NCBI RefSeq assembly: GCF_900890425.1
Contig: NZ_CAAHFG010000002.1
Location: 1,116,001-1,180,000, forward strand
Length of the DNA: 64,000 bases
Direction: 5' to 3'
Source: Pontiella desulfatans
Lineage (GTDB): Bacteria > Verrucomicrobiota > Kiritimatiellia > Kiritimatiellales > Pontiellaceae
The number at the start of each line of letters is the position of its first letter. Position 1 is the stretch's first letter. The translations under genes and the position numbers were made by a program. The notes under the pieces are model-generated. The model was given only the letters and a program-made list of their open reading frames with translations. It searched no databases and was not told the DNA's origin. This document shows, in pieces, positions 27,021 to 59,961 of the stretch.

Positions 27021-27232
27021 ACACATTGGGACTGATGGGTATGCCGGGGCATACCGAAATAATTTTGATCGTCTTCATCATTGTGCTGCTGTTTGGCGCA
27101 AAGAAGTTGCCGGAACTGTCGCGCTCGCTGGGCAAAAGCCTCGGTGAATTCAAGAAGGGCCAGCGCGAGGGCACCGAGCCCGACAAGGAAGACGACGTCG
27201 AGAAAAAGGAAATCGAAGAGTCGAAAGACTAA
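27017..27232 (+). CDS. tatA: Sec-independent translocase TatA
   Basis: Product of 71 residues with the family pattern: a short N-terminus, hydrophobic helix TEIILIVFIIVLLFGAKKLPEL with the FGxKKLPEL hinge, an amphipathic helix SRSLGKSLGEFKKG, and a charged tail. TatA polymers form the transport path. Coupled to tatC by ATGA overlap, so the three tat genes form an operon. Confidence 0.93.
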   Translation: MNTLGLMGMPGHTEIILIVFIIVLLFGAKKLPELSRSLGKSLGEFKKGQREGTEPDKEDDVEKKEIEESKD

Positions 27233-52927: not shown

Positions 52928-54312
52928 GTTGCCTCAAAAATAAATGACACCGTAGAGGTGCGGATGAGGAGTCGTTTGACTGCATTAATGGGTACCCTCT
53001 AATTCGGGGGTTGTCAAGGTGGGGAGGCAGTCGGGGAACCCGGGTTCCCCGACTGCGGCGGACTCGCCGGTTTTCTTCATTTTTTCGATCTTGCGACGTC
53101 GGCGCTGGATGCGATTGCCCAGCTCGAAAGGGTCGAGCGTTTCGTATTCGCGTTGCAGAGCAGCCTCCTGTTGTTCGCCAAGGATGCCGCTGACCTTCAG
53201 GCGGTCAAAGGGCGTGGCGGGGGCATCGTATTTCTTTTTGTACCGGCTTTTGACGCGAACCTTGCTTTTTAGCTTGAACGAGGGTTTGAAGAAGTTGTTG
53301 AGCCGTTCCCAGTCGCGGTAGAGTGCGTTGAGCTCTCTGATCATGGCCGGGTTGTCGAGCCGGTCGTAGCCGAGCAACTCGCGCACGTGCGTCCAGTTCT
53401 TTTGTTCGACATGGGCGTTGTCGTTCTTGTGGTACGGTCTGCTGCGTGTAAAACAGACGGGCTGTTTGCGTTGCAGGAAGTAGCGCGTGAGATGGTGGTT
53501 GAGGAACTCGCTGCCGTTGTCGCAGTCGAAGCCCAGGATGGCGAAGGGCAGCTTGTTTTCCACGTCGTGGGTTTGGTGCATCACGCCTTCAGCGCCTTTG
53601 TTCCAGACCGCGCGGGTTACCGTCCAGGTGCTTATGATGTCCGTATAGGTGATCGACCAGATGAAGTCCCCGCTCATCGATCCGCCACAGTGGGCTACTG
53701 TGTCGGCTTCGAGATAGCCGGGCCGGTCGATGTCCTCGGTGGAGGTGCGGATTGGGATCTGATTCTTGAGCAGCGAGCCGGGCTTGGTACCGGTATTGCG
53801 CCTTCGCTGGTACTGCGCTTTGAAGGGTTTGAGCACCCGGTCGATGCTTGCCGGGCTGATTCTCAGTAGCTTTTCACGGCATTCGGTCGATAGCGGTTCG
53901 TAATGTTTTTCATAGTGCTTCAGCCAATGTGGCATAGCAGGCTTGAGGCGCTTCCCGCACAGTTGTCCAGAACGAAGCCACAGAGTTTTGAGGGTCTTGC
54001 GCAATTCAGCAGAGTCGTACTCGCCTTTGCGGCCGCGTTTGCCCCTGGAGGGCGTAAACGAGTCGTTGAGCAGCTTGGTGGCATGCTTGCGATCATAGCC
54101 GCATACCGCGCATACTTCATCGAGCAACCGGGTCTTGTAGGCCTTTTCCGCGCGCCTATAGCGGCGTTTTTGTACCGCGATGTATTCCATTCTGGTTTCG
54201 CAACTCATCTCTTTCATCCTCCCTGTATACAGGGTGTGATTTTTTGTGAGTCAACGAATCCTTTCCGCCCGCATCCTATCGGATGCTTCGGTGTCATTTA
54301 ATTTGAGGCAAC
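52928..54312 (-). mobile_element. Insertion sequence with an rve-type DDE transposase
   Basis: About 1385 bp. Both ends, read inwards, start GTTGCCTCAAA, then A/T-rich bases and AAATGACACCG (left GTTGCCTCAAAAATAAAT; right GTTGCCTCAAATTAAAT), so a terminal inverted repeat of about 24 bp is present. One transposase gene fills the element. The target duplication was not identified. It lies about 110 bp from the inverted repeat at 52760-52814, that is, next to the IS110. Confidence 0.8.
52985..54217 (-). CDS. Transposase with integrase (rve) catalytic domain
   Basis: Product of 410 residues. The N-terminal about 150 residues are basic and helix-turn-helix-like (RRYRRAEKAYKTRLLDEVCAVCGYDRKHATKLL). 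The DDE core follows: GYLEADTVAHCGGSMSGDFIWS (first Asp), FAILGFDCDNGSEFLNHHL (second Asp), SRPYHKNDNAHVEQKNW (Glu). A Lys/Arg-rich C-terminus (FKLKSKVRVKSRYKKKYD) ends the protein. The TVAHCGGSMSGDF and NDNAHVEQKN signatures are common in integrase-core transposases often annotated only as rve/ISNCY type; the exact IS family was not decided. All catalytic residues are present. Confidence 0.9.
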   Translation of the reverse strand: MKEMSCETRMEYIAVQKRRYRRAEKAYKTRLLDEVCAVCGYDRKHATKLLNDSFTPSRGKRGRKGEYDSAELRKTLKTLWLRSGQLCGKRLKPAMPHWLKHYEKHYEPLSTECREKLLRISPASIDRVLKPFKAQYQRRRNTGTKPGSLLKNQIPIRTSTEDIDRPGYLEADTVAHCGGSMSGDFIWSITYTDIISTWTVTRAVWNKGAEGVMHQTHDVENKLPFAILGFDCDNGSEFLNHHLTRYFLQRKQPVCFTRSRPYHKNDNAHVEQKNWTHVRELLGYDRLDNPAMIRELNALYRDWERLNNFFKPSFKLKSKVRVKSRYKKKYDAPATPFDRLKVSGILGEQQEAALQREYETLDPFELGNRIQRRRRKIEKMKKTGESAAVGEPGFPDCLPTLTTPELEGTH

Positions 54313-55590: not shown

Positions 55591-56055
55591 TTATTTTTTG
55601 CTGTATGTATAGATCCAGCCATCTTCGTCAACCATGGTCATCGTACTCCCGGAAAGCGAATAGCTATGGTCGGTGAGTCCAGGGAACGTGAGGGTGTCGC
55701 CGGAACGTTGGTAATCCACGTTAAACTTAATAATTCCTTCGGCTTCGAATTCCAAGCTCGTTACGTTTCCGCTGGCGTCTGTGGTCGATAGGGTGCTGTA
55801 ATTTGTTTCCACGTCACACGAGCCATCGGAAAAGAAGGTGAACCGTTCATAATATCCTTCTGCCGTCGGGAACGATATGTCGTAGGATCCTGCCTGGAGG
55901 CGGGTGAGTTCGTAGGTTCCAACAACCGTGGAACCATCTCCTCCACCTCCACCGTCATCGTCGTTGCAGGAGGTCAATGCCATCGTACAGCAAACGATGA
56001 GGGCCAAGGTTGCGGTGCGCCGTGCGAACTTTAGCCAGTTTCTTTCGGTCTTCAT
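55591..56055 (-). CDS. Lipoprotein, lipocalin-like, paralogue 1
   Basis: Product of 154 residues. Signal peptide LARRTATLALIVCCTMALTSC in outline (residues 9-30), lipobox LTSC, followed by Asp/Gly-rich NDDDGGGGG linker and a beta-rich mature part (VVGTYELTRLQAGSYDISF, then YERFTFFSDGSCDVETNYS). The pattern resembles lipocalin-like lipoproteins that report strain by a GTW/GTY motif. The mature part differs from the upstream paralogue at 56076-56483 but signal peptides are nearly the same. Function unknown. Confidence 0.8.
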   Translation of the reverse strand: MKTERNWLKFARRTATLALIVCCTMALTSCNDDDGGGGGDGSTVVGTYELTRLQAGSYDISFPTAEGYYERFTFFSDGSCDVETNYSTLSTTDASGNVTSLEFEAEGIIKFNVDYQRSGDTLTFPGLTDHSYSLSGSTMTMVDEDGWIYTYSKK

Positions 56056-56075: not shown

Positions 56076-56483
56076 TTATTTCTTCTGGAACGTAAATTTA
56101 TAGGAGGGTCCTTCAACGACGATGGTTCCGCCCGAGATCGAAACCGGCCAATATTCTCCATTGTCAAAATGGAGCTCATTGCCTTTCAAGGAATAGCTGC
56201 TGGATTCTTTGAAATACTCCCCGCCTTCGAGGTTTTCCTCCCAGGTCATCGTGCCATCGTCGGTGAATGTGAGCGTCCAGAAATACTCGCCCGAGGGTAG
56301 GGTGGTGGTTCCTTCCGGTGTTACCATCTCGATGCATTCCCAGGTGCCGATAATCGACGACGTTGTACCCTCTCCATCCCCATCATCATCTCCGCATCCA
56401 GTCAACGCGAAGCCGACACATGCGACGATTGCGAGGGTTGCGGTGCGGCGTGCGAGTTTTCCCCATTTGTTTTCAGTTTTCAT
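56076..56483 (-). CDS. Lipoprotein, lipocalin-like, paralogue 2
   Basis: Product of 135 residues. N-terminus MKTENKWGKLARRTATLAI continues into VACVGFALTGC with lipobox LTGC, then a short acidic linker. The mature domain begins SIIGTWECIEMV, with FTDDGTMTWEENLEG and YKFTFQKK, the outline of lipocalin-like small proteins (GTW motif). It precedes the paralogue by 20 bp on the same strand and probably shares its transcript. It is likely the result of tandem duplication followed by divergence of the mature part. Confidence 0.82.
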   Translation of the reverse strand: MKTENKWGKLARRTATLAIVACVGFALTGCGDDDGDGEGTTSSIIGTWECIEMVTPEGTTTLPSGEYFWTLTFTDDGTMTWEENLEGGEYFKESSSYSLKGNELHFDNGEYWPVSISGGTIVVEGPSYKFTFQKK

Positions 56484-56811
56484 TCAGTCTCCCTGTCAGT
56501 TGAGGCGTTTCCGCCGTTGGTTGGTCATCCCCTATTAAAGTATGTACGCATAATACGTAATTTGGGCAGGGGAACTGTTCAAGCAAAAACAAACAAAGAA
56601 TTCATTGTTAGTGTATTGTTTGAATTTGCATTTAAATACTCATTAATATTTCGGAAATAATTGTCGAAAAATTCCCGTGCTTGGTCGGGAGGTTTGCCGC
56701 ATGGATTCGGCGGCTTCCAGGGCTTTGCATTCGACGTTTGACTTGCCTGGGCTGGCTTCCTAGTATTCAAGCCTATCAAGCATTGTGCTTGGAGCAACAG
56801 GGAGTCCTCTT
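56484..56811. other. AT-rich divergent spacer
   Basis: About 330 bp between the lipoproteins (minus) and the NodT-type gene (plus). The segment 56580-56660 is markedly AT-rich, in contrast to the coding DNA around it, and TACG/CGTAAT-type sequence occurs near 56540-56560. It likely holds both promoters. No gene is supported; a 72-codon minus-strand frame here looks random. Confidence 0.5.
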
Positions 56812-58224
56812 ATGAATTTGCGCGTGGTTTTTCCGCTGATGGCCGGTGTTTCCATCGTTCTGTTGAATGGCTGCGTTTCGGTGGGGCCCGACTATGAAGA
56901 GCCGGAGGCCGGAATGCCGGATGCTTGGCATGCGGCGGTGCAGGACGAATTCAAGACCGGCGAACCCGACCTGCAAACCTGGTGGACGGTCTTTGGCGAC
57001 GATACGCTGAATGGTCTGATCGAGCGTGCCGCCACCAACAACCTGGATCTCAAGACCGCCGTGGCCCGGATCGAACAGGCGGCGGCGCTGCGCGGAGTGA
57101 GCGCCAGCCAGTATTGGCCCGATATTTCCGCCGGCGCTTCGGCCACCGCCTTCCGGACGGCCGAATATGAATCGGCCACCGGCGCAAGCCAGTCCGGTGA
57201 GCGATACGGAGCCGACCTGGGCATGGCGTGGGAGCTGGATTTGTGGGGCAGGGTGCGTCGTTCGGTGGAATCGGCCGATGCTTCGCTGCAGGCTTCCGTT
57301 GAAAACTATCGCGATATTCTCGTGATGCTCTATGCCGACATTGCCGCCAGCTACATCGATGTTCGAACGTTGCAGGAGCGGATCCTCTTTGCGAAAAACA
57401 ACCTCGAAGCGCAAAGCAAGACGTTGGAGCTGACCCAGAACCGCTTTAATTCCGGATTGGTTCCGGCGCTCGATGTTTCGCAATCCCAACTGAACCTGTC
57501 GCGCACCCAATCGCTCATTCCGCCGTTGTTCCAGTTGAAGGTGGCGGCCGTTAACCGGCTGAGCGTGTTGATGGGGGCAATGCCCTATGCCCTGGAGCAG
57601 GAGCTCGAACAAACCAAGCCGATTCCTTCCGCGTCGGGCGATCTCGTGGTGGGGGTGCCCGCCGAGCTGTTGCGCCAGCGGCCCGATATCCGCCGCGCCG
57701 AACGCGAGTTGGCGGCGCAGCATGCGCGCATCGGCTCCACCAAGGCCGAGCTTTACCCCACGTTGACCCTGCCGGGAACCTTGGCGGTCGGCTCCATCGG
57801 GGACGGTTATTCCACCAGTTACGGTTTCGGGCCGCAGTTGCGCTGGAGCCTCTTTAACGGCCAGCGCATCCGTAGCCAGATCAAGGCCGAGGAGGCCGGC
57901 ACCAAGGCCGCGCTGCATGCCTACGAGCAGGCGCTGCTGCTCGCCCTCGAGGAGGTGGAGGGTTCGATGTCGGCCTACGCCAACGAAAAGGATCGCATCG
58001 AATCGTTGAAAGTGGCGGCCACCTCGGCGCAAAAGTCGGTGGATCTGGTGACCCAACTCTACACCTCGGGGCTGACCGATTTCCAGAATGTGCTCAACAT
58101 GGAGCAGGCGTTGCTGGAACAACAGGATGCCTTGGCCACCAGCAAGGGGCGGGTTAGCGCCAACCTGGTTGGGGTCTACAAGGCGCTGGGCGGTGGCTGG
58201 AATATCCCGGCGGAAGAGGAATGA
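56812..58224 (+). CDS. NodT-type outer-membrane factor (RND efflux family), lipoprotein
   Basis: Product of 470 residues. Signal peptide with lipobox LNGC (MNLRVVFPLMAGVSIVLLNGCVSVGPDYEEP), the typical start of NodT/OprM-like factors. The TolC-like coiled-coil repeats follow, for example GMAWELDLWGRVRRSVESADASLQASVENYRDILVMLYADIAASYIDVRTLQ and the second half with IRRAERELAAQHARIGSTKAELYPTLTL and FNGQRIRSQIKAEEAGTKAALHAYEQALLLALEEVE. The start at 56812 follows AGGGAG; an earlier in-frame start at 56785 is less likely. No RND pump or membrane-fusion gene lies next to it; instead an ion channel gene overlaps its end by 4 bp (ATGA). Confidence 0.92.
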   Translation: MNLRVVFPLMAGVSIVLLNGCVSVGPDYEEPEAGMPDAWHAAVQDEFKTGEPDLQTWWTVFGDDTLNGLIERAATNNLDLKTAVARIEQAAALRGVSASQYWPDISAGASATAFRTAEYESATGASQSGERYGADLGMAWELDLWGRVRRSVESADASLQASVENYRDILVMLYADIAASYIDVRTLQERILFAKNNLEAQSKTLELTQNRFNSGLVPALDVSQSQLNLSRTQSLIPPLFQLKVAAVNRLSVLMGAMPYALEQELEQTKPIPSASGDLVVGVPAELLRQRPDIRRAERELAAQHARIGSTKAELYPTLTLPGTLAVGSIGDGYSTSYGFGPQLRWSLFNGQRIRSQIKAEEAGTKAALHAYEQALLLALEEVEGSMSAYANEKDRIESLKVAATSAQKSVDLVTQLYTSGLTDFQNVLNMEQALLEQQDALATSKGRVSANLVGVYKALGGGWNIPAEEE

Positions 58225-58916
58225 GCAACCAGCCTCATCCCATCATCGATGCCGTGTTGAAAGGGCGGTTCAGCGCCCTGCTTATTACCCTGGCCCTCAT
58301 GTTTCTGGTTGGCCCCCTGATTCCCGGCGACCAGGTTCTGCTCGACAAGACCTTCGGGGTTTTCATTATGCTGGTTCTCGTCAGTTGCCTGCGGGCAATT
58401 GCGCGCACCCGCCGCTTCCTGGTTTTCATGGCCCTCTTCACCCTGCTCAACATCGTGGTCGGAAGCGCGGAGATTTTCAGCGATATGGAGACCGATGCAT
58501 TCCGCTCCATGGTGCTGGTGCTGCGCTCGGCCTATTTCGTGGTCGTGTTTTTCAGCATCATGCGCTATGTGCTCGATAGTTCCCCGGTGACGGGCGACAA
58601 AATCTGCGGGGCGATCTCGGCCTATATGATGATCGGCGTCGTTTGGACATTTGTCTTCACCCTGTTCCACCACCTCGATCCGGCCAGCTTCGAAATCCCG
58701 GCGGCTTTGCTGTCGGGCGACACCATCAACAGCACCTGGGCCTTCTACTTTAGCTTTGTCACGCTGACGACGCTGGGTTATGGCGATATCACGCCGCTCA
58801 CTCCGGGTGTCCAGTCCTATGCCATCATGGAGGCGGCCATCGGCCAGGTCTTCCTCGCGGTCATCGTGGCCCGCCTGATTGCCCTGCACATCACGCACGT
58901 GCGGGATCCGGAGTAG
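58221..58916 (+). CDS. Ion channel-like membrane protein (potassium channel filter)
   Basis: Product of 231 residues. Several hydrophobic helices (ALLITLALMFLVGPLI, FGVFIMLVLVSCLRAI, FLVFMALFTLLNIVVGSAEIF, and others) precede a pore region FVTLTTLGYGDITPLTPG with the TLGYGD selectivity filter and the final inner helix AAIGQVFLAVIVARLIALHI. This matches the Ion_trans_2 type. The start overlaps the stop of the NodT gene (ATGA), so the two are translationally coupled. A link between an outer-membrane factor and an inner-membrane channel is unusual; function is unknown. Confidence 0.86.
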   Translation: MSNQPHPIIDAVLKGRFSALLITLALMFLVGPLIPGDQVLLDKTFGVFIMLVLVSCLRAIARTRRFLVFMALFTLLNIVVGSAEIFSDMETDAFRSMVLVLRSAYFVVVFFSIMRYVLDSSPVTGDKICGAISAYMMIGVVWTFVFTLFHHLDPASFEIPAALLSGDTINSTWAFYFSFVTLTTLGYGDITPLTPGVQSYAIMEAAIGQVFLAVIVARLIALHITHVRDPE

Positions 58917-58932: not shown

Positions 58933-59961
58933 CTATTTGGGAGCGGTTTCCGGCAACGACTCGACCTCCACGGTTTCCATCCAGCGCTTGAGCGCCGGCC
59001 ACCCGCGGAATCCGGTGAGGCGGTTGAAATAGCGGTAGCCGTCTCCGTAGTCGGGGTCTTCGCACTCGGTGATGCCATGCAGGATGTCGACATGGTTGCG
59101 GCGGCGGCAATATTCCGCGGCGGCTTGCTGGCAGATCCCCTCGTGCACCCAAAGCGGCGCGCTTTCCAGGCGGGCGTAGTGCTCGTGGATCAGGTCGTGC
59201 ATCAGCTCGTGCAGCGCGGCGGCCCGGAAAACTTCGTCGTGGAGGTGGTCGACGATGTAGATGGTTTCGTTCTCCTCGCTTGTGTGTTCTTTCCAGATGC
59301 CGAACAGCTTGCGGCTGGTGACGGTGACCTGCCGGCTGTAGAGGCCCCGGATGGAAACGTTCGAGTCGGTCTTCCGAATATCCTGGGAGAGCTGCCGCAT
59401 CCGGTTGCGGTCGACCAGCTCGAGCTTCGGCACGGAGGCCAGTTCGGTGGACGTCCAGGCCTGGAGATGTCGCAGGGCGAGGTCGTAGTTGCGTTGCGCC
59501 GTCTTCTGGGTCTTGACCGCCCAGCGCATGCAGCGGTTGCAGATTTCGCGCCCGTCCTCCAGTTTGGCGGGGTAGGCGGCCGGCAGGCCGCACGAAAAGC
59601 AGACGGGACTTTTCTCGACGCACGTTTCGCAGTATTGGTGGCGCGTCACGGTGTAGCCGCGATGGATCGGGGTGGCGCAGATTTCGCACTTGGGCAGGGT
59701 GGTGTCGATGCATGCCTGCGAGCAATAAATCTGTTCCCCGGAGGTGAAATGGCTGCCGTGTATCGTTTTTTTGCAGACGGAGCATTGCGGCCGCAACCGG
59801 TCGACGCAGATCTGCGAGCAGCAGATGCGTCCATCATAGTTCCAATGGTTCCGCGGAAGTTTGCCTCCGCAAACCTCGCAGCGGTTCGCCTTGCGCGCGC
59901 CCGCCGCCATGGCGCAGCAGCACGTGGCGGTGAAGAGTCTTCTGCTAAACCGGTTGGACAT
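58933..59961 (-). CDS. DA1-like zinc peptidase with LIM-type zinc-finger modules and Tat-like signal
   Basis: Product of 342 residues. The N-terminus MSNRFSRRLFTATCCCAMAAG has the Tat motif S-R-R-L-F. Four Cys-rich LIM/treble-clef-like modules follow (C28-C31/C48-C52, C60-C63/C80-C84, C92-C95/C111-C114, C121-C124 and ICNRC). After a helical middle with REICNRC comes the peptidase part: AAALHELMHDLIHEHYARL (HELMH zinc site near residue 252) and APLWVHEGICQQAAAEY, with the third zinc ligand Glu. This matches the DA1-like family (LIM domain plus HExxH metallopeptidase), best known as plant ubiquitin-receptor peptidase DA1. Divergent from the ACT-UPF0210 pair. Its substrate in bacteria is unknown. 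Confidence 0.75.
   Translation of the reverse strand: MSNRFSRRLFTATCCCAMAAGARKANRCEVCGGKLPRNHWNYDGRICCSQICVDRLRPQCSVCKKTIHGSHFTSGEQIYCSQACIDTTLPKCEICATPIHRGYTVTRHQYCETCVEKSPVCFSCGLPAAYPAKLEDGREICNRCMRWAVKTQKTAQRNYDLALRHLQAWTSTELASVPKLELVDRNRMRQLSQDIRKTDSNVSIRGLYSRQVTVTSRKLFGIWKEHTSEENETIYIVDHLHDEVFRAAALHELMHDLIHEHYARLESAPLWVHEGICQQAAAEYCRRRNHVDILHGITECEDPDYGDGYRYFNRLTGFRGWPALKRWMETVEVESLPETAPK

Follow-up and report, generated by a model that had tools for sequence, protein, structure and literature searches.

In plants, the DA1 enzymes control the size of organs and seeds, and we know of no structural account of how their zinc modules restrain the peptidase. The copy of the PDB that we searched gave no match to DA1 by sequence or by fold. 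In the plant DA1 and DAR peptidases (PF12315), zinc modules precede a clan MA domain that carries an HExxH motif and a motif with a Glu as third ligand, and the spacing in plant DA1 is given as HEMMHX15EE (Dong et al., 2017; PMC5322733). Bacterial LIM-like/DA1 proteins have already been noted in Roseiflexus (Burroughs et al., 2011, as cited in PMC5322733). As described in the citing paper, the Roseiflexus sequences have four CxxC/H zinc pairs and high similarity to the DA1 family.

We analyzed a 64,000 bp window of the 8.66 Mb genome of Pontiella desulfatans (“the window” refers to this whole stretch), in which one gene encodes a 342-aa protein that is very probably a DA1-like metallopeptidase with a catalytic half distantly related to that of plant DA1, judging from its sequence and those of its relatives. 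The initial annotation had the limits of this ORF exactly right and gave no strand; the gene is on the minus strand (Table 1). The translation start is well fixed, as the open frame begins just three codons upstream of the ATG. Our overall reading, which we consider fairly likely, is that of an exported DA1-like zinc peptidase of the gluzincins, in which the array of zinc modules controls the catalytic domain or positions it.

Like the plant enzymes, the protein has zinc modules in front of a predicted clan MA domain, in which HExxH is followed by a motif with Glu as the third ligand. Unlike them, it has an export leader, 18 rather than 15 residues in the HExxH–Glu spacing and zinc modules that are not canonical LIM domains, and it lacks the N-terminal ubiquitin-interacting motifs (UIMs) of the plant-type, ubiquitin-activated DA1. 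No Pfam match to UIM was detected in the 342-aa protein, and only a leader of ~27 residues precedes the zinc modules. It shares with the Roseiflexus proteins a bacterial origin, CxxC/H-type zinc pairs and likeness to the DA1 family, but compared by description it has eight pairs in four modules and a twin-arginine leader. The novelty appears to lie in an exported branch that has four zinc modules and a conserved twin-arginine leader, lacks the ubiquitin-binding part and goes undetected by Pfam in Pontiella.

Table 1. Features of the DA1-like locus and of related genes in the window (residue numbers refer to the 342-aa protein).
Feature	Position	Strand	Basis or remark
Gene for predicted exported DA1-like zinc peptidase	58933..59961	minus	ORF and translation; orthologues; 342 aa plus stop; export predicted
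N-terminal signal, residues 1-22 (RR, weak hydrophobic stretch, AGA/R possible cleavage site)	59896..59961	minus	RR in 15/16 Pontiella-type orthologues
SRRLF twin-arginine motif, residues 6-10	59932..59946	minus	Alignment and codon comparison
Zinc module 1 (C28, C31, C48, C52)	59806..59880	minus	Conserved ligands
Zinc module 2 (C60, C63, C80, C84)	59710..59784	minus	Cys in 37/37 sequences
Zinc module 3 (C92, C95, C111, C114)	59620..59688	minus	C114 replaced by His in one clade
Zinc module 4 (C121, C124, C141, C144)	59530..59601	minus	Conserved ligands; degenerate in L023
Predicted gluzincin-type peptidase domain, residues 150-342	58936..59514	minus	Model; M1 structures; PF12315 matches in relatives
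HELMH zinc and catalytic motif, residues 251-255	59197..59211	minus	H251, E252, H255 invariant 37/37
EGICQ, residues 274-278; E274 predicted third zinc ligand	59128..59142	minus	E274, G275 invariant; HELMH-X18-E spacing
DPDYGDGYR motif, residues 302-310	59032..59058	minus	Y305, G306, G308 invariant
Convergent neighbor: ion channel	58221..58916	plus	PF07885; same arrangement in most Pontiella-type loci
Neighbor: outer-membrane efflux protein	56785..58224	plus	PF02321, E 1.4e-46
tatC, sole copy found in genome	26043..26834	plus	PF00902, E 6.1e-57
tatA/B/E-type gene	27047..27196	plus	PF02416, E 2.4e-18

The HELMH center and the VHEGICQ motif that had been read from the sequence are both present, with HELMH at residues 251-255 and E274 inside VHEGICQ. 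Eight residues (H251, E252, H255, E274, G275, Y305, G306 and G308) are invariant across all 37 aligned sequences; the last three lie in YGDGYR, a motif of the family. Within the family, the distance between the second His and the Glu varies: it is X18 in the Pontiella group and X18-19 in the intermediate group, and the distant group has X16 with a single exception. The initial annotation had named a different HExxH fold as grounds for giving up its DA1 reading. In the full-length AlphaFold2 model (pLDDT 88.7, pTM 0.78), the predicted fold is that of an M1-like gluzincin, and residues 150-341 align with M1 peptidases, including IRAP (Z 10.4, rmsd 3.3, 151 residues aligned). The catalytic half of the protein is thus predicted to have the clan MA gluzincin fold of the thermolysin/M1 type. 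The resemblance to the M1 aminopeptidases (leukotriene A4 hydrolase and IRAP) lies in this predicted fold (Z about 10) and in the HExxH-X18-E arrangement. Unlike those enzymes, the protein has a shorter domain, no sequence family match and a zinc array in front.

All four of the CxxC/CxxxC zinc modules described in the initial annotation were recovered as Cys4 modules (residues 28-52, 60-84, 92-114 and 121-144), and when a sequence of this composition was shuffled 20,000 times, four such modules arose once. In 15 of the 16 zinc-ligand columns, Cys occurs in at least 36 of the 37 aligned sequences. At C114, 32 sequences have Cys and five have His. These five form a single clade (tree support 96/93), and as a clade-wide swap to His keeps a zinc ligand, it argues for real zinc sites.

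Modeled alone, the zinc array gave a confident structure (pLDDT 92.2), and the structure search placed tandem LIM domains first, with PINCH1 LIM4-5 (E 4.3e-6), Lhx3 and paxillin among the top matches. The secondary structure of each module in this model is a knuckle, a hairpin and a helix, a predicted treble-clef pattern. Rigid alignment of the array to LIM structures was poor (Z 4.8, rmsd 7.9), which is expected because the repeats are flexible. The canonical LIM profile, PF00412, had no significant match in the 342-aa protein or elsewhere in its genome; in a Pfam scan, 13 of the 37 relatives matched LIM (best 2e-8). The modules are separated by 7, 7 and 6 residues, in contrast to the two residues between the fingers of tandem LIM domains, and the second pairs of modules 1 and 2 are CxxxC. 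Given these spacers and pairs and the PF00412 result, we refer to the modules as LIM-like and not as canonical LIM. The LIM part of the earlier DA1 reading therefore stands as a resemblance of the modeled array to tandem LIM structures, and not as the canonical LIM inter-finger spacing.

The array varies in some relatives. One of them (L023, 950-1891) has lost the larger part of module 1, and three of the module 4 Cys are replaced by Ser, yet it keeps an HELTH active site. Several zinc modules related to the array were also detected in long open frames of ~700 residues (G192:C4:12649-13617), which represent a different architecture.

The zinc array may pack on or near the catalytic domain, where it would set activity or dock protein substrates. 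LIM-type arrays usually serve as protein-binding platforms, and it is possible, if doubtful, that the array is here an adaptor for a substrate or surface (e.g., glycoproteins or cell-wall proteins) that has no part in regulating catalysis. Such an adaptor would suit the suggestion of the Pontiella authors that peptidases help to reach the glycans on proteoglycans (PMC7356697). Against it, the array and the catalytic domain follow each other in a conserved order and at a conserved spacing, and plant DA1 loses its peptidase activity when the LIM-like region carries the C274Y change (PMC5322733). By analogy with this plant mutation, we give an even chance to the reading in which the array controls or positions the catalytic domain of the bacterial protein.

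As the protein has no UIM, its activation cannot follow the plant UIM/mono-ubiquitin route, and the trigger must differ or be absent. We give little credence to the idea that the four modules form a switch, in which zinc loss or oxidation of the exported array would free or close the active site and a metal or redox trigger would replace the ubiquitin trigger of plants. In the reading that we favor, the protein would fold and load zinc in the cytoplasm and then leave through Tat in Pontiella (relatives have Sec-type leaders), and the exported enzyme would act on proteins or peptides, either within the envelope or beyond the cell. Pontiella is anaerobic, so the cysteines could remain reduced after export. 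The enzyme may have a part in opening up glycoproteins, which fits the published suggestion for Pontiella peptidases (PMC7356697). Export of the bacterial relative suggests that the ancestral role of the family need not involve ubiquitin. Because it is compact and has no ubiquitin-binding parts, such a relative could offer a simple means of studying what the zinc modules do alone.

The initial annotation had taken the S-R-R-L-F start of the protein as a sign of export through Tat and had placed the Tat genes in the same window. The genes are indeed there, with tatC and a neighboring tatA-type gene both on the plus strand. A twin arginine followed by a weakly hydrophobic stretch was found in 15 of the 16 Pontiella-type orthologues, and the codon for the second Arg is AGA, CGC, CGG, CGA or AGG among them. 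That the residues are kept while their codons drift supports Tat export in Pontiella-type orthologues. The features of a Tat substrate (conserved twin arginine, weak hydrophobic stretch and Tat genes) are thus all found. From the leader and its conservation, we judge it very probable that the protein is exported, and Tat is the probable route in this species. The Tat claim does not extend to the distant relatives, most of which have Sec-like and more strongly hydrophobic leaders. Export looks to be general across the family, and Tat looks to be a trait of the Pontiella branch.

The main alternative for this species is export by Sec, with SRRxF as an ordinary positively charged n-region and Tat uninvolved. 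The Sec-like leaders of most distant relatives favor it, as does a motif that falls short of the full SRRxFLK, and one orthologue within the Pontiella group (L017, 1471-2505) is without the twin arginine. We nevertheless consider this route unlikely, because the twin arginine is held in a leader that otherwise varies and despite changes of the Arg codons. The hydrophobic stretch is also less pronounced than that of most distant relatives, which is typical of Tat signals, and the window contains the single TatC gene found in the genome. The L017 orthologue also has a stronger hydrophobic leader, and TatC is present in its genome; the lost twin arginine and the stronger leader suggest a switch from Tat to Sec. 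We rejected the presence of TatC as a tracer of the export route: TatC also occurs in most genomes that carry a homologue with a Sec-like leader, and its presence alone therefore proves nothing.

The assignment to the DA1-like family comes from relatives. Sequence searches of Pfam, NCBIfam and the PDB with the 342-aa protein alone gave no significant hit, and a quick scan would therefore label it unknown. Among the 37 aligned relatives, however, 24 matched PF12315 (best 1.3e-9), several of them above the gathering score. When PF12315 was compared with the consensus of each group, the distant group matched at 1.1e-9 and the intermediate group at 3.8e-5, and the Pontiella-group consensus had no significant match. 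Alignments between the Pontiella-type and intermediate groups cover most of each protein (E 6e-54 to 6e-65), and the tree also joins the two groups. A six-frame search with PF12315 recovered members of the same family within the phylum. Membership of the protein in the DA1-like family (PF12315), as judged from these comparisons, is transitive but firm. It is transitive because the protein alone does not match PF12315 and its full-length relatives match PF12315 and LIM. The DA1-like reading of the initial annotation, for which a profile search had been proposed, is thus borne out in the relatives and not by a Pfam match of the protein itself. The segment SIRGLY (residues 203-208) may resemble the region of the plant da1-1 arginine.

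It is highly improbable that the protein belongs to a different gluzincin family (M1, M61 or DUF1570-like), acquired its zinc array independently and resembles DA1 by convergence around HExxH...E: PF12315 is unmatched by the protein alone, HELMH-X18-E is the classical M1 spacing, some relatives have weak M1 and DUF1570 matches and the nearest solved folds are M1 enzymes, but PF12315 outranks Peptidase_M1 in most matching relatives, its matches extend past HExxH (L032 matches at profile positions 3-121, G011 at 179-213), and a zinc array followed by a peptidase is the order of plant DA1, in a family that also scores LIM.

Two collections contained Kiritimatiellota orthologues of the Pontiella type, which share about 53-66% identity. 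More distant relatives (24-36% identity) are patchy within the phylum. Of 388 genomes sampled from the phylum, 82 had a match, and the family profile identified a member in 20 of 96 genomes sampled there. The scan of genome contigs returned close relatives only. No match to the DA1-like protein was detected in phage records, plasmid records or viral contigs, and there was no PADLOC match; on these grounds, a role in defense was rejected. Adjacent pairs of DA1-like ORFs, apparently tandem duplications, were observed at L067 (9011-9808 and 9954-10973) and L068 (9531-10547 and 10672-11544), each pair within the same genome.

In most Pontiella-type loci, the ion-channel gene comes after the outer-membrane efflux and VanZ-like genes and is convergent with the DA1-like gene. 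Among the loci compared, no conserved neighbor outside the Pontiella group suggests a substrate. We considered the VanZ-like, efflux and ion-channel block as an operon partner and rejected it. The block is conserved solely in Pontiella-type genomes, and both its convergent orientation and the unrelated neighbors of the distant relatives argue against such a partnership. A transposase-like ORF with an integrase-type look (52985-54217, minus strand) adjoins the VanZ-like gene. The window also contains two adjacent paralogous genes for small lipoproteins (55591-56055 and 56076-56483, minus strand), which have a common leader with ARRTATLA and a lipobox Cys and are possible Tat lipoproteins.
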